A stretch of 64,000 bases of DNA from Natronosalvus caseinilyticus. GTDB taxonomy: Archaea; Halobacteriota; Halobacteria; Halobacteriales; Natrialbaceae. The stretch covers positions 1-64,000 of the forward strand of contig NZ_CP071596.1 of the NCBI RefSeq assembly GCF_017357105.1, in the 5' to 3' direction. Shown piece by piece: positions 34,365-49,936 of this stretch. Position 1 is the first letter of the stretch, and every line of letters begins with the position of its first letter. A program made the position numbers and the translations under genes. The notes under the pieces were generated by a model that saw only the letters and a list, made by a program, of their open reading frames with translations, was not told the origin of the DNA and searched no databases.

Positions 34365-35474
34365 ATGTACGACTTCGCCGTCGTCGGCGTCGGCCCGGCT
34401 GGGGCGCGCTTCGCCCGGCGTGCCGCCGAATCGGGGTACGACGTCGTCGCCTTCGAGCAGGGTCGGATCGGCGAGCCACTCGCGTGTTCCGGGCACGTCA
34501 GCACCGACGTCTGGTCGTTCACCGGCGACGGCGCACGCGAGGAACTCCTTCAGAACGAGGTATACGGCGCCAGATTTCACGTCGGGGGTCCCCACGAGGT
34601 CGACGGTACCGGACGCGACAGCTACCAGTTCTACAAGCGCGAGGTCGTCTCGAACGTGATCGACCGGGTCGGCCTCGATCGCCACCTCGCCGATCTCGCT
34701 CGCGAGGCCGGCGCCAACGTTCGAGACGGGCACACCGTGACGGCCGTCGACGAGCGCGAGGAGTCCGTCGAGCTGACGGTCAAAGGTCCCGACGGCACCG
34801 AGACCGTCGAGGCGAAGATGGTCGCCGGCTGCGACGGTCCTCGCTCGCGAGTCCGGGAGGCACTCTCGCTTCCCGAACCCGACGAGTTGCTCCACGGCGT
34901 GCTCGCCTTCTCCGCGGAGGACGACCCCGGCGACTTCGTCGACGTCCACCTCACGGCGCCGACGTTCTTCGCGTGGCGCATTCCACGCGCCGACGCTGGC
35001 GTCGAGTACGGCCTGGCCGCGTCGCCGGGCGTCCACGTCAACCGTCACTTCGAGGAGCTGATCGACGGCTACGACGTCGAGGTCTCACACCGTTGCTCGG
35101 GACTGATCCCCATCGGGCCGCCGGATCGAGTCACGAGTCGCCGGGGCTTTCTCGTCGGCGACGCGGCGGCCCAGACCAAACCCTTCACCGGCGGCGGCAT
35201 CCTCTACGGAATGACCTGCGCGGACCACGCCGCCGACCGGATCGATCCCGACCGCCCGGCGAGCCTCGCTGCCTACGAACACGCCTGGCGAGGCGACCTC
35301 GAGCGCGAGATCGAACTCGGTCACTGGCTCCGGCGAGCGTACTCGCTCCCCGAACCGGTACAGCGCCTCGGCCTGGCGGCGACGGCTGGCGAGATCGGCG
35401 TCCACATGGATCGACCGACGTCGGTCGCCAGCCTCGAGCATCTGAAGGCGATGCTCTCTGGAGGGAGTCAGTAG
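34365..35474 (+). CDS. Geranylgeranyl reductase family FAD oxidoreductase
   Basis: 369 residues. Seen: FAD-binding MYDFAVVGVGPAGARFARRAA, the PYWF-like substrate end, a GCDGPRSRVRE motif and VGDAAAQTKPFTGGGILYGM. Archaeal relatives saturate the geranylgeranyl chains of membrane lipids; others act on menaquinone or carotenoids. Which substrate this one uses is not decided. It takes the place behind DUF359 where ribosomal genes often stand. Confidence 0.85.
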   Translation: MYDFAVVGVGPAGARFARRAAESGYDVVAFEQGRIGEPLACSGHVSTDVWSFTGDGAREELLQNEVYGARFHVGGPHEVDGTGRDSYQFYKREVVSNVIDRVGLDRHLADLAREAGANVRDGHTVTAVDEREESVELTVKGPDGTETVEAKMVAGCDGPRSRVREALSLPEPDELLHGVLAFSAEDDPGDFVDVHLTAPTFFAWRIPRADAGVEYGLAASPGVHVNRHFEELIDGYDVEVSHRCSGLIPIGPPDRVTSRRGFLVGDAAAQTKPFTGGGILYGMTCADHAADRIDPDRPASLAAYEHAWRGDLEREIELGHWLRRAYSLPEPVQRLGLAATAGEIGVHMDRPTSVASLEHLKAMLSGGSQ

Positions 35475-35539
35475 CGCACGCGGATCGTCGGCGACAGGCA
35501 AAGTGGAGGAAGCGAAAAAACGGGGACGTATACGAGGCC

Positions 35540-36034
35540 TTACTCGACGACGACGGCGCCTTTCATGCCCATGCTGACGTGAGGCGAGCAGTGGTAGGTG
35601 TAGGTTCCCGTCTCGTCGAAGGTGTGTTCGAAGGTTTCGCCCTCGTCGCCGTACATCTCGCTCTCGAAGCTGCCGTCCTCGGCGACCACGTCGTGGCTGC
35701 CGCCAGCGCCGGTCCACTCCCAGACGACGGTCGTTCCCGAGTCGACGACGATCGCCGCGGGGCCGTACGCGAAGCCGTCCGAGCCGGCACCGACGTCGAC
35801 GGTGACCTCGGACTCGCCGGTGTGGTCCTCGACGCCGTCGTAGTTGTTGGCGTCGTCGAGGTAGCCGTCGAAGTCGTAGTCGCCGCCACCGTTGCCGTCG
35901 CCGTTTCCGTTTCCGTTCCCGCTGTTGTCGCTACTCGACTCGTCTTCCTCGACGCAACCGGCCACGAGAGCCAGCGCCAGTGTTCCGCCCGATACCTGCA
36001 AGAACGTCCGTCGACTGCTAGTGTGTGAAGTCAT
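35540..36034 (-). CDS. Halocyanin (blue copper lipoprotein)
   Basis: 164 residues. N-terminal Tat signal with RR at about 8-9 and lipobox LVAGC (Cys about 27), then a Gly/Asn-rich linker and a cupredoxin domain. Copper ligands are seen: His 114 (GGSHDVV), Cys 149 and His 152 (YHCSPH), and Met 157 (MGMKG). Exported and lipid-anchored electron carrier of the respiratory chain. Single gene. Confidence 0.94.
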
Positions 36035-36235
36035 TGTTCGTCGCTATCAGAGCGTATGTCCGGGTAATGGGTCAGTTGCTCGGTCATTACCAATCGCCGG
36101 GAATATAGTCGAACATATTCGCCACATATACCCCGCGGCCTTCCATCGACGGCTGATGGGCCAGCGATCGAACGAGCAACGGACCGGACTGACCGAGAGT
36201 AAAGGGTTTTCACCCTCGAGCGGCTATCTCGAGTA

Positions 36236-36901
36236 ATGCTTCGGTGGATCCTCGCGCTGTTGCTCATTCCGTTTCTCGACGCCGTGTTGCTCGCCGTCGT
36301 CGTGAGTCAGACGACGTACATCGGCTGGATCGGAATGGTCGCCCTCGTCGTCCTCACCGGTCTGGTCGGCATGTTACTCGTGCGCGCCGAAGGCCGCAGA
36401 ACCCTCCGGAAGACCCAGCGGTCGCTCGCGGAGGGCAAGCCGCCGACCAACCAGCTCCTCGACGGGGCCCTGTTGATCGCCGCCGGCGCGTTCTTGCTCA
36501 CCCCTGGACTGGTGACCGACCTCATCGGCTTCCTGTTCGTGATTCCGCTCACGCGGGTGCCGATTCGCGCCGCGCTCAAGCGGTTCGTCATCGTCCCGTA
36601 CCTCGACAAGAAGAGCGACGGGTTCGCCAGCGGCGTTGCCTGGACGGGCGGGTTCCCTAGAGAGGGATCGACTGGCATCTCGTGGTCCAGCGGCTCTGGG
36701 GTGGACGTGGGGGCCGGGACTGGAACTGGAACTGGAACCGAAACTCGCAGCGACGACGCCACGACGGTCGACCTCGACGAGGACGACTACTCGGTCGATA
36801 CCCGCTCGAGCAGTCGCCAAACCGACTCGAGCGGTCGCCACGTGGGGTTCGACGACGAGGGAGATGACCGGGGCGATCGCGACGACCCCTCCGCTCGCTA
36901 G
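36236..36901 (+). CDS. fxsA: FxsA family membrane protein
   Basis: 221 residues. Seen: three to four hydrophobic segments (LRWILALLLIPFLDAVLLAV, IGMVALVVLTGLVGMLL, LLDGALLIAAGAFLLTPGLV, LIGFLFVIPLTRVPI) with the FxsA-typical LLDGALLIAAGAFLLTPGLVTD region. A long Gly/Thr/Ser and acidic tail follows (from about 145) with a TGTGTGTE tract. In bacteria FxsA interferes with phage exclusion; in archaea the role is unknown. Confidence 0.88.
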   Translation: MLRWILALLLIPFLDAVLLAVVVSQTTYIGWIGMVALVVLTGLVGMLLVRAEGRRTLRKTQRSLAEGKPPTNQLLDGALLIAAGAFLLTPGLVTDLIGFLFVIPLTRVPIRAALKRFVIVPYLDKKSDGFASGVAWTGGFPREGSTGISWSSGSGVDVGAGTGTGTGTETRSDDATTVDLDEDDYSVDTRSSSRQTDSSGRHVGFDDEGDDRGDRDDPSAR

Positions 36902-36931
36902 CGGTTCTCACGGCCCACAGAGAAAGAAACG

Positions 36932-36937
36932 TTTAAA
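36932..36937 (+). promoter_or_regulatory. Box A of the tRNA-Ile gene
   Basis: TTTAAA centred in the palindrome ACGTTTAAACGT, 32-37 bases before the tRNA 5' end; the usual place for an archaeal TATA box. Confidence 0.65.
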
Positions 36938-36968
36938 CGTCCCTCCGCGCAACTCACTGATGCGACGC

Positions 36969-37042
36969 GGGCCAATAGCTCAATCAGGTTGAGCGCCACT
37001 CTGATAAGGTGGAGGCTCTCGGTTCAAATCCGAGTTGGCCCA
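36969..37042 (+). tRNA. tRNA-Ile (GAT)
   Basis: 74 bases. Acceptor GGGCCAA pairs with TTGGCCC, discriminator A. Anticodon arm CCACT-CTGATAA-GGTGG with GAT at 37003-37005. T arm GGTTCAAATCC. No intron and no encoded CCA. A copy of its last 22 bases occurs 118 bases further on. Confidence 0.95.
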
Positions 37043-37159
37043 TGTTCTCGCCGCGAGCAAATTCGCGAGCGGCGGGTACTGGATCCTGCTCGGATTTGAA
37101 TGACGCGAGTCGCAGGCCCGGGAAACGAGCGAAGCGAGCGACCCGGAACGTCTCGAGGG

Positions 37160-37181
37160 GGTTCAAATCCGAGTTGGCCCA
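37160..37181 (+). repeat. Copy of the tRNA-Ile 3' end (attachment-site-like)
   Basis: Identical to the last 22 bases of the tRNA-Ile gene (37021-37042). The flanks right after both copies are also related (TTCTC..GCGA..AAATTCG/CAATTTCG..GAGC..GTAC), so more than the tRNA end was once duplicated. This is the pattern left when elements integrate into tRNA 3' ends. Confidence 0.75.
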
Positions 37182-37606
37182 CTCTTCTCAGCGACCAATT
37201 TCGTGAGCCGAGAGTACGTGCTGCCGTGAGGGTCTTTCGTACGCACCAGCGACCGGGTGATAGCCCAGCGAGTGGTTTCCGTCGTTCGCAACTGGGCATT
37301 ACTCGAGGAGAAGTTTCAGAATTCGTGGCGGAGTCGAAGAATTTTACTCTCCCTTCTTCGGTCCCACCGTGCGGGCTGAAGCGGTCGCAGTCGGCTCCTC
37401 GAGGCGCAGGTATAACGGAACGCACGGTTACCGGTTCGAGCCGTCGAGGAACGATGGTCCCCGTTTTTATCGCGCAACGGTCTGGATAGGAAGATGATTC
37501 CGAACCTCCACGCCTGGTGCACGGTACCACGTGAAAGCTCCACAAATCGCGCTTCACCGTCTATCGAGGCAGCGTTCGATTCACGGCACGGGGGTCGCTT
37601 CGAGCG
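37182..37606. other. Gene-free stretch before the large repeat protein
   Basis: No credible gene seen. Contains a T-rich TATA-like sequence (GTTTTTATCGC, about 37464-37474) and an AT-rich patch (AAGAATTTTACTC). Much of this is probably the long 5' region of the repeat-protein gene plus decayed tRNA-flanking sequence. Confidence 0.45.
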
Positions 37607-40600
37607 ATGAAGCGACTTGTGGCGGCGCTTTTCGTCGGTATGGTCGTGACCGGGCTGATCGTCGGTGCCTCCGGACTGACGCTCGGGAGCGTTCCGCTCG
37701 CCGGTCCAGGAGACGGCGAGACGCGACCCGAATTCCCCGCTGGTGGCGATACAATCGACGTCTCGGAGGACGGTGTCGAACTCGTCGAGTTCGACGAGAC
37801 GCACTCGGGCGCACGACAGGACAGGGAGACCGCCCAGTCCGAGCGAGAGGCGGCCGAGGAGGGTGCCGAGCGAGGGATCGAACTCGCCCAGGCACAGGGT
37901 GTGAACGTCACTCAGGAGCAGCGAGAGGCTACGACATCTGCGGCCGTCAAAGCCGCCGAACAGTACCAGGACGCGACCGTCGAGCAGATTCAGCGCGCCG
38001 CAACGGGGGCGGTTCACGGCGCGTTGCTCCAGCATCAGGCGGTCAACGTTACGCAGTTACAGTCGGCCGTGACCGGCAGCGCGGACGGTGCGCTGAGCCA
38101 GCACCAGTCGGCCAACGTGACGCAGATGCAGAACGCGGCGTGGGGTGGGGCCCACGGCGCGCTCGACCAGTACCAGTCGGTGACGGTCGAGCAGATCCAG
38201 TACGCGGCCCGCGGCGCCGCGGCAGGCGCCGCACGCGAGGCCGGCGAGAAGGAGGTCGGTCACGTCGGCGTGATACAGGAGGCGGCCCAGGGTGCGGCCC
38301 ACGGGGCGCTCGAGGCCACGAAGAAGCAGAAGCACCCCTCCCGACAGCACGTCGTCCAGCGCCAAGAGATAACCGTCGAGCAAATTCAACACGCGGCGGC
38401 GGGGGCGGCGGCAGGTGTCGTCGACGGGCATCAGGAACAGCGCGTCAGGGTCGAGCAGCGACAGCACGCGACGATCAAGCAGGTCCAGACGGCCGCATTG
38501 GGCGCCGCGAAGGGCGCGCTCGTCCAGAAACAACGGGTCAGCGTCGAGCAGACGCAGGTCGCCGCACGCGGCGCTGCGAAGGGTGCGCTGTCGATTACAC
38601 AAATCCAGCGGGTAGAGATCACGCAGATCCAGGCGGCCGCGACCGGTGCCGCGACGGGCGCGATCTACCAGAGCCAGGAGGCGACGATCGAACAGATCCA
38701 GGCGGCGGCGATCGGCGCAGCGAGGGGAACGATCGTCCAGAAACAGGCAGTCCACGTGACGCAGATCCAGTACGCCGCTCGCGGCGCCGCGATGGGTGCC
38801 GTCGAATCCGCGATCCAGTACCAGAGCGTCACCGTGGCGCAGATCCAGGCCGCGGCGATGGGGGCCGGGAAAGGCGCCGTCGAACAGACCCAGTCGGTGC
38901 GCGTACAGCAGGTACAGTCGATCGCCCGCGGCGCGACGAAGGGCGTCCTGTCGGTCGCCCAGGAACAGCGCGTGACGATCCTTCAGATACAGAAGGCGGC
39001 CGAAGTAACGTGTCAGTCGGTCTCGAAGGAGGTCCAGACCCAGCGGGTCACCGTCGAGCAGGTTCAGCGGATCAGCGAACGTACTGCCATGGACACGACC
39101 CAGCAGACGGTCGATGATGACCTCAACCGCGAGGTCGACATCCGCGAGCGCGCGGAGGCGAGCGCGGTCGATAGAACCGCCGAAGAAGAGCCTGCGGAGG
39201 GGGAGGCGACAGTGAGCACCATCGGTCAGACGATCGACGGGGAGACGGTCACGATCGACGATGTGACGCTCTCGGAGGGCGGGTTCGTCGCCGTTCACGA
39301 CGCAAGGTGGTTGGAAGGCGAACGCGCCGACAGCGTGATCGGCGTCTCCGAGTACCTCGAGCCCGGCGAGCACGAATCGGTGACCGTTACCCTGTTCGAG
39401 GACGCTCCAGGGGCCGAGTACGAAGTCGACGCGCTCGAGGCAGGCGAGCACTCGCTCTTCGTCGTCCCGTATCGCGACGGCGACGACGACCAGGAGTTCG
39501 ATTGGATCGACACCGACGACGGGGCAGATCCGCCGTACGTCCGGCAGGGCGGCGAACCGGTGGTGGCATCGATCGAGGCGACGGTCGCCGAGGAACGGTC
39601 CGCCGACCTCGAGGTCACTGACCAGGCCGGGGACGGGGAAACGGTGACCGTCGAGCGCGCGACGGCAAACGTCGAGTTCTACGTCGAGGCGAGCAACGGC
39701 GACCGGGTCGTTCAGAGCGAGGGCTTCGGGGCGAACGAGACCGCCGCCAATCTGACGCTCGACCTGGACCCGCCGCTCGGGGAGGCTACCGACCTCGAGG
39801 TGACGATCCGTGCCGTCGAGGACGGTGAGGGACTCGAGTCGGCGGAACTCGAATACGAAGTCGACGCCGCCGTCGCCGATGAACCGGCGGAGGCGACGGC
39901 GAGCCTGAACGTTTCAGACCAGACCGGCGACGGGGGGACCCTCGTCGTCGAAAACGTCACGGCAACCGTCGACTTCTTCGTCGAGGGTCGTTACGACGAT
40001 GAGGTAGTGCAAAGCGAATCGTTCGACGCCGACGAGGTCGTCGAGAACCTGACGCTCGAACTCGAACCGCCCCTCGAGGAGACCAGCGACGTCGAGGTCG
40101 CCGTCAGAGCCGATGACGACGATTCGGAACTGACGGTTCAGACGATCGAGTACGTTCTCGAGGTCCCGGTGGCATTCCTCGATTGTACCACGCTCGAGGT
40201 CCGGGACGCGGCCGCGTTTGATGGGGCCTCGCTACGCGTTTCGTATCTGGAGGGCCCCTTCACAGGCGACGAGATCGATCTCGAGAGCGACGACCTCGCG
40301 GAGACGGTCGACGGCTCGATCGAAGACGGGGCCGTCCTCTCGACGGCCGATCTGTACCCCTTCAGCGAGTTCACCCACTACGTCGAGTTCGCGTCCTTCG
40401 CCGAAGCCGACGACGAGAACGTCGTCGAGAATCCGAACCCGGCGACCGTCGAGGACTGTCAGGAGCTCGGCTTCGGCGAGCGTCCGACCGCCGACGTCGC
40501 GTTCGCCGACCAGGAGACCGACGGAACGAGCGCGACCGTCGACGCCGTGTCCCTCTCGGAAGGCGGCTTCGTCGCCCTCTACGAGGCGGGAGCGCCGGTC

Positions 40601-41569
40601 GAGAACGAGACCGTTCTCGGCGTCTCCGAGTACCTCGAGCCCGGCGAGCACGAGAACGTCACCGTCGACATCGAGGAATCGATCGACGAGGACCGGACGC
40701 TCGTCACGGTCGTCCACCGCGACCTGACCGGCGACGGCCAGTTTACGTTCGAGAGCGTCGAGACGATCGGCGTCCACGACGGCCCCTACCTCGACGAGGA
40801 CGGCGATCCCGTCGCCGACGAGGCCGAGCTCCTCCTCTCGGCCGAGTTCGCCGTCTCGATCGCCGACGCGCCCGAAACCGTCGAGTCCGACCAGCCGATC
40901 GAACTATCCGTCGAGGTGGAGAATCGCGGCGCCGGCCCCGGCGAGGCGCCCGTGGTGATCGACGTCGGCGCGCAGGAGGCGGTCGTCGGCGAGTCCGTCG
41001 CTCTCTCGCCCGGCGAGACGACGACGCTCACGGTGGCCGTCGACCCACCGGCAGACGCCGTCGGCGAACTCGAGCTGACAGTTCGCGTCGACGACCCAGA
41101 CGTGGCCGCGCCCGAGGAGGGAAGCGATTCGGTGACCGTCACCGTCGAGGAGGCCGGCGAACCGGCGTTCGAGGTGACGGCCCTCGACGCGCCCGAAACC
41201 GTCGAGGCGGGCGAGTTCATCGAGGTCGCTGCGGAGGTAACGAACGTCGGCGAGGCCCCCGGTGAAGCCGAAGTGGTGTTCGACATCGGCGGCTTCGACG
41301 CCGCTACCGATTTCGTCTCGCTCTCTCCCGACGAAACGGCGACGCTCGTCGTCACCGTCGAGACCGGCCCGGGCGACGTCGGCGACCTCGAGATCGGGGT
41401 TCGCACGGCCGACGACCGGACGTCGACGACCGTCGAGGTGATCGGGTCTTCGAACGAGGACGACCAGCAGGGCGCTCGAGCGGGACCGACGGCTGGGACG
41501 AATCCGGCAGTCTCGGCGTCCGCGTACGTACCGAGCTATCTGATCTCGGTCGATCGAGTGGACTCGTAG
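37607..41569 (+). CDS. 1320-residue secreted protein with Gln/Ala/Gly 23-25 residue repeats, DUF7282-like and CARDB-like modules
   Basis: N-terminal signal (KRLVAALFVGMVVTGLIVGA), an acidic linker, then about 16 tandem units (residues about 99-500) with consensus V-x-V-E/T-Q-I-Q-x-A-A-x-G-A-A-x-G-A-L-x-Q-x-Q; units 6, 8 and 9 carry insertions. Next are a DUF7282-like domain (SEGGFVAVHD to the SEYLEPGEHESVTV region, about 535-660), two related beta modules (about 665-850), a two-Cys module (LDCTTLEV and VEDCQELGF), a second DUF7282-like domain (about 965-1080) and two CARDB-like Ig modules (about 1085-1270). No C-terminal PGF motif or membrane anchor is visible. Several N-x-T sequons lie in the repeats, so N-glycosylation is possible. 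Probably a released or cell-surface fibrous protein; function unknown. Confidence 0.85.
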   Translation: MKRLVAALFVGMVVTGLIVGASGLTLGSVPLAGPGDGETRPEFPAGGDTIDVSEDGVELVEFDETHSGARQDRETAQSEREAAEEGAERGIELAQAQGVNVTQEQREATTSAAVKAAEQYQDATVEQIQRAATGAVHGALLQHQAVNVTQLQSAVTGSADGALSQHQSANVTQMQNAAWGGAHGALDQYQSVTVEQIQYAARGAAAGAAREAGEKEVGHVGVIQEAAQGAAHGALEATKKQKHPSRQHVVQRQEITVEQIQHAAAGAAAGVVDGHQEQRVRVEQRQHATIKQVQTAALGAAKGALVQKQRVSVEQTQVAARGAAKGALSITQIQRVEITQIQAAATGAATGAIYQSQEATIEQIQAAAIGAARGTIVQKQAVHVTQIQYAARGAAMGAVESAIQYQSVTVAQIQAAAMGAGKGAVEQTQSVRVQQVQSIARGATKGVLSVAQEQRVTILQIQKAAEVTCQSVSKEVQTQRVTVEQVQRISERTAMDTTQQTVDDDLNREVDIRERAEASAVDRTAEEEPAEGEATVSTIGQTIDGETVTIDDVTLSEGGFVAVHDARWLEGERADSVIGVSEYLEPGEHESVTVTLFEDAPGAEYEVDALEAGEHSLFVVPYRDGDDDQEFDWIDTDDGADPPYVRQGGEPVVASIEATVAEERSADLEVTDQAGDGETVTVERATANVEFYVEASNGDRVVQSEGFGANETAANLTLDLDPPLGEATDLEVTIRAVEDGEGLESAELEYEVDAAVADEPAEATASLNVSDQTGDGGTLVVENVTATVDFFVEGRYDDEVVQSESFDADEVVENLTLELEPPLEETSDVEVAVRADDDDSELTVQTIEYVLEVPVAFLDCTTLEVRDAAAFDGASLRVSYLEGPFTGDEIDLESDDLAETVDGSIEDGAVLSTADLYPFSEFTHYVEFASFAEADDENVVENPNPATVEDCQELGFGERPTADVAFADQETDGTSATVDAVSLSEGGFVALYEAGAPVENETVLGVSEYLEPGEHENVTVDIEESIDEDRTLVTVVHRDLTGDGQFTFESVETIGVHDGPYLDEDGDPVADEAELLLSAEFAVSIADAPETVESDQPIELSVEVENRGAGPGEAPVVIDVGAQEAVVGESVALSPGETTTLTVAVDPPADAVGELELTVRVDDPDVAAPEEGSDSVTVTVEEAGEPAFEVTALDAPETVEAGEFIEVAAEVTNVGEAPGEAEVVFDIGGFDAATDFVSLSPDETATLVVTVETGPGDVGDLEIGVRTADDRTSTTVEVIGSSNEDDQQGARAGPTAGTNPAVSASAYVPSYLISVDRVDS
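37901..39110 (+). repeat. Coding tandem repeat, about 16 units of 69-75 bases
   Basis: Units are degenerate at DNA level and conserved at protein level, with spacing kept in frame. The conserved residues are the alternating V/Q strand (VTVEQIQ) and the small-residue helix (AARGAAKGAL). Confidence 0.85.
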
Positions 41570-41668
41570 CCGCCCGAAACCACCGGTCGTAGCGCTCGAG
41601 GGACGTCAATGCTCGATCGATCTTATGATTTTACCGAATTGTGCAGAGACAGCGACCGTCGTGTCCGC

Positions 41669-42025
41669 TTACGGTGCGCCTGTAACAACCATCAGCGAAT
41701 CGTCCGCGGTAAACTCGAGTTCGCGCGTCGTCTCTGGATCGACGCGAACGGCGTCACCGGACGCGAGGTCCACCTGGTTGCCGTCGATCTGGATGGTCGC
41801 CGCGCCCTCGAGCAACAGGTACACTTCCTCCTGGCCGTCGTCCTCGTGATCGTGTTCCAGGCCGTCCCAGCCCTCGTCGGCTTCGATGACGGTTAGCCCG
41901 TGGGTCTCGCAGTCGAGGGCGTCCCGAAGGAAGGACATACCCGGCACGCGCGGTTCGACATCCTCGTACGAGATTGCGTCGTACCCCGTGACATCCTCCT
42001 CGCCGTTGACGGCGAGGCTTCCCAC
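41669..42025 (-). CDS. Cupin-domain protein with an N-terminus derived from a TnpB-element end
   Basis: Single-domain cupin of 118 residues: HDHEDDGQEEVYLLLEG (motif 1) and DAVRVDPETTRELEF (motif 2), so a small metal-binding beta barrel of unknown substrate. The native part seems to begin near TGYDAISYEDVEPRVPG. The codons before it (GTG start at 42025, giving MGSLAVNGEEDV) lie inside the right-end hairpin of the neighbouring TnpB element. A start at the in-frame ATG of MSFLRDALD is the alternative if the native start was lost. Confidence 0.78.
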   Translation of the reverse strand: MGSLAVNGEEDVTGYDAISYEDVEPRVPGMSFLRDALDCETHGLTVIEADEGWDGLEHDHEDDGQEEVYLLLEGAATIQIDGNQVDLASGDAVRVDPETTRELEFTADDSLMVVTGAP

Positions 42026-42150
42026 GCATGGGGAATACCAGTTAGTCGTCGTCTCCAGAACCTTCGATTCTGGTGGGCTGCACGAGACTCTTAGTCTCGT
42101 GAACGCTGGCAGAGGGTTTCGACTCTTCGTAGGCCGTGAGCGTCATCTGC
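41989..42150 (-). ncRNA. Candidate omega (guide) RNA of the TnpB element
   Basis: IS200/IS605 TnpB proteins use an RNA from the 3' end of tnpB and the right end of the element. Here the minus strand holds the tnpB 3' end followed by a hairpin of 8 bp with a 4-base loop (41998-42017) that ends at about 41989. The guide would continue into the cupin gene. Extent is an estimate. Confidence 0.4.
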
Positions 42151-43353
42151 GCTGGTATGCTCTGCTCACAGTGAGTCGTGGCGGTGTCACAACCGCGCCC
42201 GTCCCGAGGCGAGTCATCGCGCTCCGCCTTGTCAAGCGGGACGCTCTCTCCCCACGGGTCAACCCGCCGTGCGATATTCGCGGAAGCGTTGATGTCGGCC
42301 TGAAACGTCGAAACGTGGCAGTCGTCGTGCGGACACCGGAACTCGGCCTGGGAGTCCCGCCGACCGATACGGTGGCACGAGTGGCACGTCTTCGAGGTGT
42401 ACGCCGGATTCACGTACTCGACTGGGATGCCTGCTTCCGTCGCCTTGTCCTCGATACGCCCTTGCAGTCGGGCGAACGCCCACGAGTGAAGCCGACGGTT
42501 CATGTACTTCCCGTAGTCGAGCCGTTCGCGGATGTACGTCAAGTCCTCCATCACCAACACCGGGCTCTCGAACTGTTTGGCGTACTCGACGGCCTGTCGA
42601 GACGCCTTTTCCACGATGTCGGTGAGCGCGTTCTGGTAATGTGAGGAGCGGTCGTCGGTACGCCACTCGGATGTGTCACGCTCTTGGAGGCGTTTCAGGG
42701 TGGTGTGCATCGCTTTGCGGAGATGCTTTGCTCTGCTTCCGCTACGCACGAACGGGTCAGTTGGAGAACCGTCCTTGAGGGCACAGCCCGTGATGAGGGC
42801 AGTCTCTCCGATGTCTAAGCCGATGTGCGTGGCGTCACCGTCCGTCGCTGGTTCTTTGACCAGGTACTCGACGGTGACGTGCAGTACCCAGCTCTTCCGA
42901 TGCTTCTGAAGCCGTATCTCGCCCGCCCTTCGCGTCCTCCGATACGAGGGCGTGCCAGAGGTCCTCCTGTTCAGGGTTGATGCGAAGCGGAATCCAAAAG
43001 TACGTTCCCCGACCGGGACGGGGAACCCACCACGTGAACTCGTAGTGACGTTCTTCGGAGTGGTCGAACGTCGCGGCTTGGTTCGTGAGGCGTATCGGGT
43101 GTTCGTCGTCCAATTCCTTCGCGTTGTACGTCTTGTGGAGTTTCGGGACGTAGTTGCAGAGGGCGGCTTTGGCCTGATACGGCAGGTCGTAGGGCGTCAC
43201 GATGTCACTCACCGCCGACATGGTACTCGCCCCAGCGTCGAACGCCTCTTGCAGACCGTCACGATACGTGTTGAGCAGGTCGTTGAGTTTCGACTGCTTG
43301 TGCGTGGTCGGTGGGGAAAACGTCGCTTGAAGCGTCTTAGTTATCGTCGTCAC
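42042..43353 (-). pseudogene. tnpB: TnpB RNA-guided nuclease, one-base frameshift
   Basis: Starts GTG at 43353. The N-terminal part (142 codons to DLWHALVSEDAK) and the rest (AGEIRLQKHRKSWVLHVTV onward) are joined by removing one G from GGG near 42920-42929. Repaired length is about 436 residues. RuvC residues: Asp in GLDIGET (about 180), Glu in VMEDLTY (about 269), Asp in QADINASANIA (about 353); zinc finger Cys at about 323, 326, 340 and 345. All catalytic parts are intact apart from the shift. Either a recent mutation or a homopolymer read error. Confidence 0.88.
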
Positions 43354-43480
43354 TGGCGTCTAACCCTTTCTCGATTAGTTCGGCGTAGGCACGAGGATGT
43401 CGGATGCCATTGTCGCGGGCGTACTCTTTCACCCGCTCGTGGAGGTCGTTCCCTCGCTCCATATCGATTTCAGTTCGCAC
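43337..43480 (-). CDS. Small ribbon-helix-helix protein in front of tnpB
   Basis: 47 residues from the GTG at 43480 (MRTEIDMERGNDLHERVKEY...); ATG at 43462 is possible. Pattern: beta strand RTEIDM, helix LHERVKEYARDNG, helix PRAYAELIEKGLDA, the RHH fold of small DNA-binding repressors. Its stop lies inside the tnpB start region: the two frames overlap by 17 bases, so they are transcribed together. A role in limiting expression of the element is inference. Too short for usual ORF cut-offs. Confidence 0.7.
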   Translation of the reverse strand: MRTEIDMERGNDLHERVKEYARDNGIRHPRAYAELIEKGLDASDDDN

Positions 43481-43677
43481 AACTCTTTGAACGTTTTCTT
43501 GGTGCTAATAACTTCTGTTTGGAATTCAGGCTGCTGTAAACGGTGGGTTGCGTAGTCAAGTGACGCGATTCACGCCCGCTGTGAACGGCGGGATTCTCTC
43601 GCTGTTCAAAGATAGGAGAATTCTCGCACTCGTCGCCTATGAAACCACGCGAAGCGGAACGTGACTGCCGACACCCG

Positions 43678-45000
43678 TTATTCTGGGGACGGAGCGACGA
43701 ACTGCCCGTCGTCGAACTCGAGTGGCGCCGGTTCCGAAACGACGCGAAGATCCGCCCGGTCCCGCGCGGCGTCGACGAGCGGACTCGAGGCGTAACACCG
43801 CTTCAGGCGCATCGTGTCCGTCACCCTGAGAACGCGAGCGTCTTCACCTGGAACGGGGCCGATGGTGCCGAGGGCGGCCACGAGTCCCGCGCGATCGGTT
43901 TCGACCACCGGCGGGAGGCGAACTCCGCGCACCGTGCTCGCGGTGATGGCGTTGATGAGGGACTTCGACCAGTCGAGTTCGGCGAGTACGTCGCGATGGG
44001 CGACGTCCGCCTGGCCCATCCCCATCGCGTTCCCCTTCGTCTTCTCGGTGAGGCCGCGAGCGAAGACGCGCTTGATCTCGGGCGAGTCCGGTTCGGGTTC
44101 GTTGATCGTGAAGTGGCGCCGACCCGTGACGTTGGGATCCATCCCCTGGCCGCTGACGTCCTTGCCGAGTCGATCGACGACGAGGACGTCCAGTTCGTCG
44201 AACGGCAGCGTCGGCATGCGCTCCCGGGCGAGGTCGAGGAGGTCGGCCTCTCGAGTCAGAAATCCTTCCGGCGGGACGCCCTCGACGAGCGTGGTGTCGT
44301 CGTGCTGGTCTTCGACGACTGCAACACCGCCGGCGACCGGCAGCGTCCGGAGCAACTGGTCGGCGATCTCGGGAATCATGTTGCTGAGACTCCACTCGAC
44401 CGCCCAGTCGTGGGCGAGTTTCGCGCCGCGCTGTTTCCCCATCCCGATGACGAGCATCTTCGAGAGGCCGCTCTCGACGTCACCGCTGAAGCCGGTGTGG
44501 GGCTTGATCCGGTTTATCGGCACGATGGCGTCCGCCTCGACCGCATACGCGTCGGCGTACACTGGCACCCCGCGATCCGGCGTCTCGCCGACCTGCACGA
44601 CGTCCATGGTCGCCCGGATCGCACAGCCGATCGACGCCTCGGTGACGCCGAGGGTCTCGAGTTTGTCGCGCTGACCCGCAGCGGTCGCCCCGCCGTGGCT
44701 CCCCATCGCGGGAACGACGAAGGGGTCGTACCCGCGGTCCTCGAGCGCGTCGACGACGCCGCGAACGATCTCGGGGAGGTTGTCGATGCCGCGGCTGCCG
44801 ACGCCGACGGCCACCTCGCCGCCCGCGGGGACGTCCCTGAACTCGAGGGCGGCCACCGCCTCGGCTGCCTCGGCCGCGACGTCTTCGGGCGGGATGGGGT
44901 CGGTCTCCCACCGCTGTTCGATGACGCCCATCCGCGGAAGCACGACGTCTCCGCAGGCGTCCTGGACGGTCGACTCGCCAATCGCGAGTTCGTCGATCAT
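43678..45000 (-). CDS. LarA-like protein (lactate racemase N-terminal domain, DUF2088)
   Basis: 440 residues from the ATG at 45000. Seen: VGVGSRGIDNLPEIV, VPAMGSHGGATAAGQRD and NRIKPHTGFSGDVESGLSK, typical of the LarA/DUF2088 family whose lactate racemase uses a nickel-pincer cofactor. No larB/C/E maturation genes are adjacent, so substrate and cofactor are uncertain. A TTG nine codons upstream is rejected in favour of the ATG. Confidence 0.85.
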   Translation of the reverse strand: MIDELAIGESTVQDACGDVVLPRMGVIEQRWETDPIPPEDVAAEAAEAVAALEFRDVPAGGEVAVGVGSRGIDNLPEIVRGVVDALEDRGYDPFVVPAMGSHGGATAAGQRDKLETLGVTEASIGCAIRATMDVVQVGETPDRGVPVYADAYAVEADAIVPINRIKPHTGFSGDVESGLSKMLVIGMGKQRGAKLAHDWAVEWSLSNMIPEIADQLLRTLPVAGGVAVVEDQHDDTTLVEGVPPEGFLTREADLLDLARERMPTLPFDELDVLVVDRLGKDVSGQGMDPNVTGRRHFTINEPEPDSPEIKRVFARGLTEKTKGNAMGMGQADVAHRDVLAELDWSKSLINAITASTVRGVRLPPVVETDRAGLVAALGTIGPVPGEDARVLRVTDTMRLKRCYASSPLVDAARDRADLRVVSEPAPLEFDDGQFVAPSPE

Positions 45001-45094
45001 GGGCGCGTAGACGGTGGTGACCGTCAAAAGCGTGTGGGCGAGGTGATCGCCGCTTCCTCAGGGCTTTTTTCTCCTGGCCGCGAACGATCGGTGC

Positions 45095-46108
45095 ATGACC
45101 GACTCGTTCGACGACGTCGACCTCGAGTTCGTTCCGCTCGGTCGAACCGGCATCCAGACCAGCGAGCTCCAGTTCGGGACCTGGCGTTTCGGCCGGACCA
45201 CGGAGGAGGGGAACCTCGAGATCACCGAAGAACGCGCCCACGAATTGCTCGACGCCTACGCCGAGGCCGGCGGTCGGTACATCGACACGGCCGACGTCTA
45301 CGGCGGCGGCGACAGCGAGCGCTGGATCGGCGACTGGCTCGCCGACCGCGACCGCGAGCGCTACACCATCGCCTCGAAGATCTACTGGCAGATCCGCGAC
45401 GGCGATCCGAACAGCAAGGGGACGAACCGGAAGACCGTCCGGAACCGTATCGACGCGCTCCTGGATCGCCTCGACACCGACTACGTCGACGTCCTCTACA
45501 TTCACCGCTGGGACGACGCGACCTCGACCCGCGAACTGATGAAGACGCTGAACGGACTCGTCGAGGACGGCAAGGTCCACTACCTCGGCGCGTCGACTCT
45601 GCGACCGAACGCCTGGAAGGTCGCTCGGGCGAACGCCATCGCCGACGCCCACGGCTGGGAGCCCTTCACCGTGCTCCAGCCACGGTACAACCTCGTCGAT
45701 CGGGAGATCGAGGGCGACTACCTCGAGTTCGCCCGACAGCGCGACCTCGCGGTCTGTCCGTGGAGCCCGCTCGGACAGGGCTTCCTGACCGGGAAGTACT
45801 CCCGAGAGGAGGACGTCCCGGAGGACTCGAAGTCCGCCGAATCGAGTCGGTTCAGGGACAATTACCTCACCGAGGAGAACTTCGACCTGCACGACGAACT
45901 CGACGCGGTCGCCGAGGAGGTCGACGCGTCGCCGGCCCAGGTTGCCCTCGCGTGGCTCTCCCACCGCGACGGCGTCAGCGCACCCATCGTCGGCGCCCGG
46001 ACGGTCGAGCAACTCGAGGAGAACCTCGCGGCCGCGGCAGTCGACCTCTCCGACGAACAGGTCGAGCGCCTGACGACCGCGAAGGCGGGCCCCTACGAGG
46101 GACTGTAA
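45095..46108 (+). CDS. Aldo/keto reductase
   Basis: NAD(P)H-dependent carbonyl reductase, TIM barrel, 337 residues. Catalytic tetrad members: Asp and Tyr in YIDTADVYGGG, Lys in ASKIYWQ and His in YIHRWDD. Cofactor end: GARTVEQLEENLAA. Belongs to the bacterial-like AKR11/12-type (potassium-channel-beta-like) group. Divergent from the LarA-like gene. Substrate unknown. Confidence 0.93.
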   Translation: MTDSFDDVDLEFVPLGRTGIQTSELQFGTWRFGRTTEEGNLEITEERAHELLDAYAEAGGRYIDTADVYGGGDSERWIGDWLADRDRERYTIASKIYWQIRDGDPNSKGTNRKTVRNRIDALLDRLDTDYVDVLYIHRWDDATSTRELMKTLNGLVEDGKVHYLGASTLRPNAWKVARANAIADAHGWEPFTVLQPRYNLVDREIEGDYLEFARQRDLAVCPWSPLGQGFLTGKYSREEDVPEDSKSAESSRFRDNYLTEENFDLHDELDAVAEEVDASPAQVALAWLSHRDGVSAPIVGARTVEQLEENLAAAAVDLSDEQVERLTTAKAGPYEGL

Positions 46109-46303
46109 CGACCTCGAAGACGCTCACCGACTCGAGTACCGGGCCCTCACGGGCGACCAGTACGGATATTCGACACTGCTGGGATGGCGAGGGCTGACCG
46201 TTCGCGATGACAGCGACCGTGACCACGGCGGAAAAGTGGACGTATCCGCAATCTCGAGACGGGCGACGGATTCATACTGTCGTGTCTCCTCACAGACGAC
46301 AAA

Positions 46304-46954
46304 ATGATGCTGCCGACCCACGCGTTCGCGGGGATGGTGATCGCCCTCCCGTACGCACTCGTGTTCCCCGAATTCGCCCCTGTGGCTCTGCTCGCCGGGT
46401 TTCTCGGCGGGGTCGTTCCGGACCTGGATCTGTACACAGGCCACCGGAAGACGCTCCACTACCCGGTGTACTACCCGGGAGCCGCCGCCGTCGCCGTTTC
46501 GGTCGCCGCCCTGTGGCCGACGCCTGCCACGACCGCCGTCGCGTGGTTCCTGCTCGGCGCCGCCACCCACAGCGTCGCCGACGTCTTCGGTGGCGGCCTG
46601 GAGCTTCGACCGTGGGAAGCCACCTCGAGTCGAGCCGTCTACGACCACCACAACCGCCGGTGGATCGCCCCACGTCGCTGGGTCCGCTACGACGGGTCGC
46701 CGGAGGATCTGGCGCTGTCGGTCGCCCTTGCCGTTCCGCTCGTGGTCGCCCTCGAGGGTGCGATCGAGTGGCTCGTGATCGCGTTCCTGGGTATCGCGGT
46801 CGCGTACGCGGCCGTTCGACGGATCCTGCCCGCAGTCGCCAGCCGACTGATCGGCGACCTCGTGGTCCCGAACGCCTCGAGTCGCGTCCTGGCGTACGTT
46901 CCAGCCCGCTATCTGGATCTCAACGCGGAACGCGGTTCGACGCAGTCTCGGTAG
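46304..46954 (+). CDS. Membrane metal-dependent hydrolase (YdjM/DUF457-like)
   Basis: 216 residues with four or more membrane segments and the family's metal-ligand pattern: HAFAGM, GVVPDLDLYTGHRKTLHYP and THSVADVFGGGLELRPWE. Bacterial relatives (YdjM) are LexA-controlled membrane proteins; the archaeal reaction is unknown. Start at 46304 (ATG ATG). Same strand as the next gene but separated by 112 bases. Confidence 0.85.
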   Translation: MMLPTHAFAGMVIALPYALVFPEFAPVALLAGFLGGVVPDLDLYTGHRKTLHYPVYYPGAAAVAVSVAALWPTPATTAVAWFLLGAATHSVADVFGGGLELRPWEATSSRAVYDHHNRRWIAPRRWVRYDGSPEDLALSVALAVPLVVALEGAIEWLVIAFLGIAVAYAAVRRILPAVASRLIGDLVVPNASSRVLAYVPARYLDLNAERGSTQSR

Positions 46955-47066
46955 CCTCGAGTAGGGAGCCTCGTTTTCGCTAGAGAAAATATAGCAAGGG
47001 CGCGAGATCTCGTAGAAACGACCAAAGAATCATGCCAACTCGGCGTCAGTCTTCAGCGAGGCGTTC

Positions 47067-47753
47067 GTGATGACCGGGTGGATGACCGTTGCGCTCGTTT
47101 CGTTCCAGGTCGGGATCCTCGTCATCTTACTGGAAGCGCTGCGTCGCCAGGACGTCGCCGCCGCCACGAACGCGCTCGTGTCGTTCGCCGTCACACTGGT
47201 TCCGGCGGCCGTCGAGTACGTCGCGGAAGCCGGCTTCGACGGATCCATCGCGTTCGGAACGGACCTGCCCCTCTGGGTCGCCGTCGCGGGATTCTTACAC
47301 GCCGTCGGGATGCTGGGTCCGTACGATTCGGTCTGGTGGTGGGATCACCTCACTCACCTGGTGTCCGCCGCCCTCGTCGCGGCGCTGGTCTACGCCGGAT
47401 TCCTGGTACTGACCCCTGCGCTCGGGTGGTGGCGAATCGGGCTCCTGACCATCGGCGTCACGTTCATCGTTGGCGTGTTGTGGGAACTGTTCGAACTCCT
47501 CGCACGTCGGGTGGGAAATCAGTACGACGTCGAACCCGTCCTCGTCCACTACGGCTGGCGTGATACGGCGTTCGACCTGGTCTTCGACGTGCTCGGGGCG
47601 CTACTGGTCGTACTCTTCGATCTGCGAGTGTTCGTATCGGTCGCCGACCGGTCGCTCGAGTCCCAGGGCGTGACGGTGTTAGGAGCCAGCGTACTGGTGT
47701 TCGCCGTCGCACTCGTCGTTCTCGGCCTCGACGCACGGAGCGGAGAGTCGTGA
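47067..47753 (+). CDS. Membrane protein, YjdF/DUF2238-like
   Basis: 228 residues with about six hydrophobic segments. Seen: GPYDSVWWWDHLTHLVSAALVA, GVLWELFELLARRVG and DLVFDVLGALLVVLF, the His/Asp/Glu pattern of the DUF2238 family. Function unknown. A TATA-like patch (AAAATATAGC) lies about 80 bases upstream. Confidence 0.82.
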   Translation: MMTGWMTVALVSFQVGILVILLEALRRQDVAAATNALVSFAVTLVPAAVEYVAEAGFDGSIAFGTDLPLWVAVAGFLHAVGMLGPYDSVWWWDHLTHLVSAALVAALVYAGFLVLTPALGWWRIGLLTIGVTFIVGVLWELFELLARRVGNQYDVEPVLVHYGWRDTAFDLVFDVLGALLVVLFDLRVFVSVADRSLESQGVTVLGASVLVFAVALVVLGLDARSGES

Positions 47754-48011
47754 TCGAGCGCCTAAATTCTGTCCACAGTGACCGAAACGGTCGGACCTCC
47801 TACCCCTACCCTTGGCTATGAGTGGCCGGAATCGGCCGGAGACGTGTCGACTACCCGTCTGCCAGCGTGACGGGTCGTGGTGTCGAACGTCGTTCGTCGC
47901 TCCTCGGGACCGCGTCCGTCCGATCACCGGACGTCCCACCTCGCTGCTCGGAGACGACGAACTGGACCTCGACGATATTCGTCAACGGCCTCGCGTCACT
48001 CGGCAGGTTGA

Positions 48012-48033
48012 CGGGCGAGACGGGATTCGAACC
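48012..48033 (-). repeat. Copy of the tRNA-Arg 3' end (attachment-site-like)
   Basis: Identical to the last 22 bases of the tRNA-Arg gene (48127-48148 on the window), 93 bases beyond the tRNA end. Pattern is the same as beside tRNA-Ile. Confidence 0.78.
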
Positions 48034-48126
48034 ACGTCTGAGAACTTGCTCACTCCGCTCGCAGAACCTCAGTCTGATTCGAATCCGCTGTGCCGTTTCC
48101 ACTGCTCGCTGACGCTCACAGGAAAA

Positions 48127-48199
48127 CGGGCGAGACGGGATTCGAACCCGCGATCAGAAGGTTAGGAACCTCCTGCCCTCTCCGCTAGGCCACTCGCCC
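48127..48199 (-). tRNA. tRNA-Arg (CCT)
   Basis: 73 bases, minus strand. Acceptor GGGCGAG with CTCGCCC, discriminator G. Anticodon arm GGAGG-TTCCTAA-CCTTC, anticodon CCT. T arm GGGTTCGAATCCC. The 5' end is 11 bases from the tatA stop. No intron. Confidence 0.93.
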
Positions 48200-48210
48200 C
48201 GAGAAAAATA

Positions 48211-48519
48211 TTAGTTGGCTTCCGTTTCGGTTTCCGTTTCCGTCTCGGTTTCCGTCTCCTCGTCTTCAGCCGTGACGGGCTCCGTGTCGACGAACTCCTC
48301 TTCCTCGTCGTCGTAGTTCCCCGTCTCGCGCATTTCCTCGAGTTCTTTCTCGACCTTTTCCTGACCCTTCTTGAACTCCCCCATGGCCTCTCCGGTCGAC
48401 CGTGCCAGTTTGGGGATCTTGTTCGCCCCAAAGAGCAAAATGGCGATGAAGAGGATGATCAGGAGTTCCGGACCCCCGGGGACGCCGGGGATGACAAGCG
48501 GTGCGATTTCGGCTACCAT
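48211..48519 (-). CDS. tatA: Sec-independent translocase TatA
   Basis: 102 residues from the ATG at 48519. N-terminal membrane helix PELLIILFIAILLFGANKIP with the FG hinge, an amphipathic helix (KLARSTGEAMGEFKKGQEKVEKELEEM), and an acidic tail ending in an (ET)n run. Forms the pore for folded Tat substrates, several of which are in this window (amylase, halocyanin, CapA-like protein). The tRNA-Arg gene follows 11 bases after the stop. Confidence 0.93.
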   Translation of the reverse strand: MVAEIAPLVIPGVPGGPELLIILFIAILLFGANKIPKLARSTGEAMGEFKKGQEKVEKELEEMRETGNYDDEEEEFVDTEPVTAEDEETETETETETETEAN

Positions 48520-48867
48520 CTCTGTCCGCAGATTACCCGCTGGCAATTATAACCTTTTTGGACCGGCAAGTGAAGCCACAGAAAGCCACAAAAGGACTCG
48601 AGAGGCGCTATACGGCCAGTTCAGTGGGCCCAAATGGGACATCTCCACCGTTGGCTTGCCCGTAGTTGGTATGACCGGTTAATTCCGTCACCTCGGCACC
48701 AGCGACGACCGTCGGCCCGGCCGAACGATTCTCACCATCGAGACCACCCCTGCGGGAGCGGCGTGACGCACCGACGTTCGGGACGTCCGCGAGTCAACGA
48801 CGACCACGAGTCGCCCGTACACGCTGCCAGCGGAGGGCTTTTTTGCCTCCCCGACGACGGCTAGGCT

Positions 48868-49689
48868 ATGACCGATAGCGAACACGTCGAGAGTCCCTCC
48901 AATGGCCGCGTCTACGATCCGGACGACGACCACCACTTTCCCGACGAAAAACTGAACGCAGTACTCGAGTTCGTCGAGGCCGACGAGGAAATCCAGACCT
49001 ACCTCGAGGCCCAGAACGTCAACGCGGTCGACCGCAAACGGTACAACGACCACGGGTCGAAACACATCGAGATCGTTCGAAACCGGGCACTTTGTCTCTA
49101 CGACCTGCTGAAAGCGGGCGACGTCGACTTCAACGGGGCCAGACAACAGGGCCTCGAGGAGGCCGACGAAGCCGTGATCATCGCGCTGGCGGCCACGCTC
49201 CACGACGTCGGTCACGTCGTCCACCGAGCCGACCACGTCTACTACTCGATCCCGCTAGCCGCCGACATTCTCGACCGGATCTTGCCGGAGTTCTACGACG
49301 TCGCCGAGCGCGTCCGCGTGAAGGGCGAGGTCCTGCACGCGATTCTCTGTCACCACACGGCCGAAAAGCCCCTGACGACCGAGGCTGGCGTCATCCGGGT
49401 TTCTGACGCCCTCGACATGGAACGGGGCCGCTCGCGGATTCCGTACGAACAGGGTGGCCGCGGGATCAACACGCTCTCGAGCCAGGCGATCAGCCGCGTG
49501 TCGCTTCACGAGGGCGAATCCAGCCCCGTGATGGTCGAGATCGCGATGACCAACGCCGCCGGCGTCTACCAGGTCGACAACCTGCTAAAGGCCAAGCTCA
49601 AGGGCTCGGGCCTCGAGGACGAGATCCGGATCGTCGCCGTGAACACGAACGAGAACCGCGAACAGCTGGTCGAACGCATCGAACTCTGA
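48868..49689 (+). CDS. HD-superfamily phosphohydrolase
   Basis: 273 residues. HD-type metal ligands: YNDHGSKHIEIV, LAATLHDVGHVVHRADH and LHAILCHHTAEKP, then VIRVSDALDMERGR. The first part is acidic. Likely a nucleotide or phosphate-ester hydrolase of unknown substrate. Start at 48868 (MTDSEHVESPSN). Alone on this strand. Confidence 0.9.
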   Translation: MTDSEHVESPSNGRVYDPDDDHHFPDEKLNAVLEFVEADEEIQTYLEAQNVNAVDRKRYNDHGSKHIEIVRNRALCLYDLLKAGDVDFNGARQQGLEEADEAVIIALAATLHDVGHVVHRADHVYYSIPLAADILDRILPEFYDVAERVRVKGEVLHAILCHHTAEKPLTTEAGVIRVSDALDMERGRSRIPYEQGGRGINTLSSQAISRVSLHEGESSPVMVEIAMTNAAGVYQVDNLLKAKLKGSGLEDEIRIVAVNTNENREQLVERIEL

Positions 49690-49936
49690 CCGCCAGACTG
49701 CCACGAACGAGGGGGGCAGCAACAGACTGATCATCCGGGGTGTCGTTTTCAGGGATCGCTCGCGACCTCGAGTGTTTTCGCCGCCGACAGTCCTCCGTCG
49801 GCCGACGATGCTCGATTTCCTGTACGTCGCCGGCGCTGGTCCTGTTTCTGCCGGGCGTAGTGGATCACCTCCACGCCCGATATCGACGGTCGTCGAGGCG
49901 GCACGACGGGACGCAGCTGCTCCAAAACGAGCGGGA

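Follow-up and report, generated by a model that had tools for sequence, protein, structure and literature searches.

In a window of 64,000 nucleotides from Natronosalvus caseinilyticus (order Halobacteriales; contig NZ_CP071596.1, positions 1 to 64,000), a tRNA-Ile gene and a tRNA-Arg gene are each followed by a short insert that ends in a copy of the tRNA 3' end. Are these inserts remnants of something that once entered the tRNA genes, parts of a structured RNA, or elements in their own right?

Layout of the two inserts

The host of the first insert is tRNA-Ile(GAT) at 36969-37042 on the plus strand, which was identified by ARAGORN and by Rfam (RF00005, 69.6 bits). Behind it on the same strand are hairpin A (37047-37076), where sequence and fold indicate tandem GA/GA flanking a GC-AAATTC-GC tip, an inverted copy of the T-loop/T-stem (37088-37100) with 12 of 13 bases complementary to tRNA-Ile, hairpin B (37101-37159), and the final 22 bases of tRNA-Ile repeated directly (37160-37181), with all 22 identical. 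Comparison with another genome (G002) indicates that the following stretch, 37182-37216, is an older hairpin A remnant and the start of a decayed second Ile unit. The second host, tRNA-Arg(CCT) at 48127-48199, was also identified by ARAGORN and Rfam and is on the minus strand, as is its unit: hairpin A (48096-48126) adjoins the tRNA and is followed by an inverted T-loop copy (48078-48090; 10 of 13 bases complementary to tRNA-Arg), hairpin B (48034-48077) and, repeated directly, the final 22 bases of tRNA-Arg (48012-48033; 22 of 22 identical). The hairpin A of a former second Arg unit is at 47982-48011 on this strand, and the same hairpin is directly 3' of tRNA-Arg in genome G003.

Reading away from the tRNA, a unit consists of hairpin A, the inverted T-loop/T-stem copy, hairpin B and tRNA positions 53-73 copied in direct orientation; the units are gene-less, with lengths of about 70-205 bp. 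A sequence-only reading had proposed that the two inserts share one architecture, and both do have this order. The stems it named (CCGGG/CCCGG and CTGAG/CTCAG) were both found, and two of its motifs are where it placed them, GGATTTGAAT starting at 37092 and the Arg hairpin B tip GAGCGGAGTGAGC at 48048-48060 on the minus strand. Its other two motifs are present, but one base away from the positions it gave: the Ile hairpin B tip GAGCGAAGCGAGC is at 37127-37139 and not 37128-37140, and the Arg counterpart GGATTCGAAT is at 48077-48086 on the minus strand and not 48078-48087. That description left out hairpin A, which separates the tRNA from the inverted T-arm, as well as the complementarity of the inverted piece to the T-stem of its own tRNA.

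Size of the family and conservation of its parts

The two inserts are members of a large family. In the N. caseinilyticus genome, a copy of the last 22 tRNA bases is present within 320 bp downstream of 18 of the 42 tRNA genes and upstream of none of the 42. Of 53 genomes sampled from the order, 52 contain the palindrome of the unit (control, 0 of 53; order-level counts tallied by eye from the result table); outside the order it is present in 28 of 241 genomes, in one or two places each. Eighty of 83 matches are no more than about 355 bp behind a tRNA, all of the oriented units are behind tRNAs on the same strand, and the same hairpin B types are found at different tRNAs and in many genera. No unit containing a gene was found among 240 tRNA loci.

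Within the window, the hairpin B loop motif is not above chance, with three matches (one mismatch allowed) against a mean of 2.1 in shuffles. Genome-wide it occurs 17 times and a backward control pattern 35 times; six of the 17 follow a tRNA gene on the same strand at a distance of up to about 275 bp, and five tRNA genes are concerned. The sequence-only reading took the inserts for a defined small element or RNA, not random decay, and saw two things that would speak against this: that the motif is merely a common codon-driven word, or that no additional copies have compensatory changes in their stems. The motif is no such word, because it has only those 17 occurrences next to 35 for the control, and it is clustered behind tRNA genes. 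Further copies with compensatory changes are abundant, and so a defined element or RNA is supported.

In the covariation count, 94.2% of cells are paired, changes on both sides occur in 7 of 21 pairs, and 20 cells have a compensatory change compared with 5.5 in shuffles; if the stem partners are shifted by 1-3 columns, pairing falls to 16-37%. These figures do not come from the length-grouped pairing counts in symmetric register, in which a one-base shift distorts the inner stem. From a set of 15 sequences, one in the wrong orientation was left out (L024, where a tRNA had been called spuriously on the opposite strand).

The direct copy has a sharp edge. Among 202 copies, identity to the tRNA is no higher than background at positions 49-51 and is high across positions 53-73, positions 53-61 being conserved by construction because the search pattern fixes GATTYGA and GTTCRAATC; the 203 pattern-derived segments include the wrong one of L024, and some loci overlap. 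The inverted stem matches its own tRNA at 2.42 of 4 positions, compared with 1.58 (sd 0.055) in 1000 shuffles. Three non-functional tRNA copies (L284, L285 and L286) carry inserted hairpin pairs, precisely at G53|T54.

The hairpins are also strand-specific in part. On the tRNA-sense strand GA/GA outnumbers TC/TC by 30 to 0, and the hairpin tips (tandem GA/GA, triloop) are found 109 times on this strand against 8; G.T versus A.C wobble counts, used as a strand test, have no bias (14 to 13; 65 to 71). A 201-bp insert without an inverted T (L059) was excluded from the inverted-T complementarity, GA/GA and 14-to-13 wobble counts, and 6 of 90 units, with an inverted T under 8 of 13, from the latter two. 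Mini-hairpins of the d(GCGNAGC) type and sheared GA pairs are the general background to such tips.

Stacking, turnover and other explanations

The units stack in tandem, with hairpins A and B variously combined. The tRNA-proximal copy is closer to the tRNA sequence than the next copy in 26 arrays and less close in three, with 27 ties (one-sided sign test, 7.6e-6), a polar pattern that could result from gene conversion instead of recent insertion. Changes within a genus are also seen. For example, hairpin B at one tRNA-Arg has four forms within one genus, and the tRNA-Ile unit is absent from one genome of the genus (G002), in which a hairpin like the 37182-37216 remnant is directly 3' of tRNA-Ile; this empty site can also be explained as a deletion between two like hairpins. 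Because of the sharp 53-73 copy, the stacking and the turnover within a genus, "element" is better supported than "RNA".

One could suppose that integrative elements (proviruses, plasmids) entered the tRNAs by means of an integrase and lost their bodies, leaving attachment arms and tRNA copies as scars. Such elements do insert into these tRNAs, and integrases are known to target the T-loop region (PMC8371274). Our survey covered 30 integrase loci plus L067, where no integrase was found, and L108. At L275 and L138, a hairpin with a GA tip is directly 5' of the element's distal tRNA copy, and these are the only GA hairpins before a copy among the elements. However, in most of the examined elements with an integrase the core is a different one (the acceptor end or about 31 nt) and there is no inverted T/hairpin B, and many of the surveyed loci have no tRNA core at all within 450 bp. 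In the cases followed (L283, L301, G012 and L311), the unit is beyond the element's own distal copy, and the one match in viral contigs is, here too, behind a tRNA. Uniform size (about 100-160 bp) and intact hairpins at many tRNAs are also unlike random decay, and we regard the scar explanation as unlikely. With several surveyed loci having acceptor-end or about 31-nt cores and no inverted T/hairpin B on the element side, the case for the abundant P0001-type integrase (in 55 of 61 genomes) acting on the units is weak; no enzyme for the units was found, and at the ends of the elements with an integrase in these tRNAs the inverted T/hairpin B is mostly missing.

The compensatory changes in a fold of the tRNA-sense strand, and the same-strand position of all oriented units, would fit a structured RNA, in which transcription reads through past the tRNA, trailer hairpins A and B act as a small RNA or a 3' maturation guide, and the T-arm copies lie within the fold. 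We think this quite unlikely: an acceptor-strand copy to the exact tRNA end is superfluous for the fold, an intact unit is missing at more than half of the genome's tRNAs, and a tRNA maturation signal would not usually form tandem arrays or have its types replaced so fast at a single tRNA inside one genus. A registered Rfam family was rejected, as only the two tRNAs exceeded gathering scores at positions 35000-50000. T-runs behind the tRNA are uninformative as an early transcription stop: among 98 units, 21 have four T within their first 10 bases and 4 have five T within their first 12.

At tRNA genes, slippage of replication or a fold-back template switch might produce the inverted and direct copies in situ, with no mobile element, and would suit the inverted repeats flanking hairpin B, the inverted hairpin B in L071 and the hairpin interior at tRNA-Arg that is inverted between G000 and G007; however, hairpin B types that recur across tRNAs and genera require the spread of modules, which makes this origin very improbable. 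Finally, chance, i.e., a common word combined with tRNA duplications that have decayed, agrees with the motif count inside the window but is ruled out by the genomic motif counts, the downstream and upstream tRNA copies and the stem covariation.

Putative cassettes and known mobile systems

From the sequence comparisons, we give about an even chance to the explanation that each unit is a putative mobile DNA cassette that is gene-less and dedicated to a single tRNA gene. The unbiased wobble counts and the lack of any gene-bearing unit at the 240 tRNA loci speak against it. Such a cassette would insert at G53|T54, where the T-loop begins on its 5' side, and supply a fresh tRNA 3' end, and the old end and any older cassettes would shift downstream. 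The active form may be the folded tRNA-sense strand, with the inverted T copy paired to the direct copy, which would present a recombinase with a double-stranded target copy capped by hairpin B. Because a unit is too short to hold a gene, a putative tyrosine recombinase would work in trans; cassettes might be lost by recombination between the repeated cores. A cassette with the 3' end of one tRNA would restore only that tRNA, whatever species it entered, which would explain tRNA-specific lineages that span genera.

Like the units, MITEs and REP-like palindromes are short, gene-less, hairpin-forming and multicopy, but the units are almost only behind tRNA genes (the 80 of 83 noted above) and have a host-tRNA-specific core instead of fixed terminal repeats. 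The att core of SNJ2 is about 14 bp at the tRNA acceptor end; this core was not found in the units, where positions 53 to 73 are duplicated. PMC8371274 describes the SNJ2 target as the acceptor end only, the amino acid attachment site. By the same source, SNJ2-type haloarchaeal elements resemble the units in duplicating the tRNA 3' part and restoring a functional tRNA, but they carry an integrase, whereas the units have no gene in their about 70-205 bp and do have the inverted T copy and hairpins. Partial tRNAs adjoining full copies in Haloferax gibbonsii (PMC7921747) and a 22-bp tRNA copy in Haloquadratum (PMC3119063) are probably the same or an overlapping phenomenon, seen as tRNA remnants; in the portions of these papers at hand, neither hairpins nor an inverted T copy is mentioned, and nothing is said of a family or of stacking. 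A literature search found no description of such tRNA-linked hairpin units.

Integron cassettes with attC sites, ORF-less cassettes and CALINs are, as here, short tandem units behind a fixed entry site; attC is likewise an imperfect hairpin with structure kept more than sequence, and the G|TT junction is shared. Folding on one strand and growth at the entry-site end, both integron features, may be shared too. Of the integron traits, strand-specific folding is seen in the GA/GA pairs and tips and not in the wobble pairs, and addition at the entry end agrees with the 26 to 3 count, which gene conversion could also yield. The units differ from integrons in entering at the tRNA T-loop, at many tRNA genes, with a host-tRNA-specific T-core, no genes and folding of the tRNA-sense strand. 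The attC R and L boxes are RYYYAAC ... GTTRRRY; the core of the units is the tRNA GTTCRAATC (e.g., TTCAAATCC) and not GTTRRRY. Integron membership was rejected, the integron integrase model TIGR02249 being above its curated cut-off in 0 of 31 genomes. In the text of an archaeal integron paper (PMC9668308), neither "tRNA" nor any word starting with "halo" occurs.

A more specific proposal, which is tentative and on the doubtful side, is that tRNA genes are the entry sites of an integron-like system in haloarchaea. Its gene-less cassettes would display a double-stranded T-loop copy in a single-strand fold and insert at G53|T54, its polar arrays would record successive insertions, and it would be run by a recombinase so far not known to act on folded single strands.

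If the units are RNA instead, they would be a large unregistered RNA family tied to tRNA genes. If the cassette explanation is true, an unnamed mobile DNA is present in roughly ten or more copies, on essential tRNA genes, in almost every sampled genome of the order, which would account for the partial tRNAs in haloarchaeal annotations. The arrays may keep the order of insertion and be usable as a marker of strain history. Such a gene-less, structure-based mobile element would possibly be the second natural case, after integrons, of a recombinase that reads a folded single strand.

The inserts behind tRNA-Ile and tRNA-Arg and their family

The 4.2 Mb haloarchaeal genome to which the window belongs (two contigs, C1 and C2) has an insert of 139 bp behind tRNA-Ile (36969-37042, plus strand) and one of 115 bp behind tRNA-Arg (48127-48199, minus strand). 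Read from the tRNA 3' end, each insert starts with a hairpin (A), which is followed by the T-loop and T-stem copied in inverted orientation; next come a second hairpin (B) and, in direct orientation, a copy of the 22 bases that end the tRNA. The order claimed in the sequence-only reading is present at both loci, but that reading lacked hairpin A. The motif GAGCGnAGyGAGC caps hairpin B in these two inserts and hairpin A elsewhere; it reads as a two-base-pair stem closed by a GNA triloop, with tandem GA/GA mismatches on both flanks.

A copy of the last 22 bases (at least 17 matching, no more than 320 bp behind the tRNA) is present downstream of 18 of the 42 tRNA genes of this genome. The same search upstream found none in 42, and an inverted copy is downstream of only one of the 42. 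Twenty units were extracted. In all 20, the tRNA closest to the direct copy, out of all those in the genome, is the one that the unit stands behind. In the 19 units compared (locus L059 was left out), 8-13 of the 13 bases of the best inverted T piece agree with the tRNA, ungapped. Decayed remains of units are present behind several more tRNAs. The motif is rare elsewhere: the whole genome has 17 matches, fewer than the 35 of the backward control, and six of the 17 follow a same-strand tRNA at a distance of up to about 275 bp.

This genome and 30 relatives were searched for the palindrome GATTYGAA, 25-55 bases, TTCRAATC, and 29 of the 31 have it; its backward control is absent from all 31. Among 294 genomes sampled across the phylum (tallied by eye), it is present in 52 of the 53 genomes of the order, at 1-25 places each (control 0/53), and outside the order in 28 of 241, at one or two places each (control 9/241). 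A stricter pattern found at least 120 stretches on public genome contigs; among the 80 stretches listed, 79 have haloarchaeal titles, and the remaining one belongs to a euryarchaeal metagenome assembly that is unplaced. On viral contigs there is a single match, likewise behind a tRNA, and none for a second hairpin class. Taking the listed public loci and this viral contig together, 80 of 83 matches are within about 355 bp behind a same-strand tRNA; of the other three, one is 3.1 kb behind its tRNA, from which an element separates it, and two lie at the start of a contig. It is close to certain that the units are a defined, widespread and structured family.

Hairpin structure and the folded strand

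Across 14 equally long hairpin B sequences, pairing holds in 94.2% of the cells, as compared to 16-37% in controls with slid partners. Two-sided changes occur in 7 of the 21 pairs (20 such cells versus 5.5 in shuffles).

The fold appears to be that of the tRNA-sense strand. Among the 2x2 mismatches in 84 units, GA/GA occurs 30 times and TC/TC never. Capped hairpin tips number 109 on the top strand and 8 on the bottom strand (shuffles: mean 20, maximum 32), and 70 of the 109 are GNA triloops. The top strand is also the more stable one in 186 of 203 cases with RNA parameters and in 182 of 203 with DNA parameters. Wobble-pair counts show no strand bias, which counts against a sense-strand fold. 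GNA triloops and tandem sheared GA pairs are very stable in DNA and are also found in RNA, and therefore they do not discriminate between the two.

This genome also has another repeated long hairpin, GGCGCTAAG ... CAGCGCC, which has the same GAGCGNAGCGAGC tip and is without the T-core, the tRNA's GTTCRAATC. It is found around position 1501 of three extracted loci, L035, L043 and L046 (C1:853312, C2:33914 and C2:192612); in L043 a TnpB-like frame of 406 aa follows it at about 230 bp. This hairpin is perhaps the end of an insertion sequence, perhaps a guide RNA, and GA/GNA tips may cap haloarchaeal hairpins in general. Between the two tRNAs of the window is a TnpB-like remnant (42042-42749, minus strand; Pfam Cas12f1-like TNB domain, E 1.6e-17), and the adjoining frame (42835-43353) has no Pfam match. 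A 1320-aa frame (37607-41569, plus strand) has many QxxxVTVEQIQxAAxGAAxGA-like repeats and acidic domains, a composition that would perhaps fit a secreted or surface protein.

Boundaries, turnover and the question of a mover

Over 202 copies, identity to the tRNA is at background at positions 49-51, reaches 0.78 at 52, stays high over 53-73 and drops to 0.54 at 74. Because the search pattern largely fixes positions 53-61, it is the drop at 49-52 and the run at 62-73 that count as independent evidence. Beyond the common T-loop, complementarity between the inverted T-stem and its own tRNA amounts to 2.42 of 4 positions in 203 units, as compared to 1.58 in 1000 shuffles (sd 0.055), and it becomes faint by position 65. 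At integrase-bearing elements, three tRNA-Phe/Tyr copies that are non-functional (L284, L285 and L286) are each split exactly at G53|T54 by two GA-tipped hairpins that lack an inverted T piece, which points to G53|T54 as the entry junction.

Two or more copies occur in tandem at 56 of 240 tRNA loci. In 26 of them the first copy is closer to the tRNA than the second, in 3 it is less close, and in 27 the two are equal (one-sided sign test, 7.6e-6). This is expected if new units come in beside the tRNA; an alternative is that gene conversion from the tRNA has kept the first copy similar to it. In the tRNA-Asp array L096, one hairpin A occurs with two hairpin B types, and vice versa, and so the two hairpins act as modules.

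Within the genus, the units differ from genome to genome (the relatives compared have the labels G001 to G005 and G007). At tRNA-Arg one hairpin B type is shared by the window's genome and G002, a second is in G007, a third is in G003, where a decayed unit of the first type stands behind it, and a fourth is in G004; G001 and G005 have a G003-type hairpin B and the flank in common and differ in hairpin A. The tRNA-Ile unit is common to the window's genome and G007 (121 of 139 aligned columns identical; 181/201 over the 200 bases beyond it), and is missing in G002; G001 and G004 have a different type there. The G002 junction hairpin starts like the first hairpin A of the window's genome and ends like the second, so deletion is possible and this junction is not decisive. 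Near tRNA-Arg, the hairpin after the copy (47982-48011, minus strand) has its interior inverted relative to G007 (L264), with the stem ends TCAAC/GTTGA kept. In L071, at the tRNA-Phe of genome G021, hairpin B is inverted between inverted and direct T-cores, which is what recombination between inverted repeats should produce.

Gene-bearing elements with the tyrosine recombinase P0001 (Pfam PF00589, PF02899), relatives of which are in 55 of 61 genomes, enter the same tRNAs as the units. Two of them have a GA-tipped hairpin before the distal copy, L275 (1.9 kb, recombinase frame intact) and L138 (3 kb, frame broken). L275 (208-2140) is a very small integrative element in tRNA-Ile of G005, its only genes being the recombinase and a 150-aa frame. 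The other readable element ends lack the inverted T and hairpin B, and there the units lie beyond the element end as older neighbours; hence the P0001 recombinase is a weak candidate for the mover. No integron integrase exceeds the curated cut-off (TIGR02249) in 31 genomes.

A probable gene-less cassette

In a search of the open literature, we found no published description of such units. The nearest remarks are on partial tRNAs beside full copies in Haloferax gibbonsii (PMC7921747) and on repeat-mediated deletions in Haloquadratum, among them a 22-bp tRNA copy, which is attributed to prophage integration (PMC3119063). Archaeal tRNA fragments are treated elsewhere as integration or CRISPR products (PMC9897764).

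In conclusion, the best-supported reading is that the unit is a gene-less, tRNA-specific mobile cassette that enters at the T-loop. The cassette likely moves as a unit, the folded sense strand would be the likely substrate, and we propose a single-strand, integron-like mechanism.
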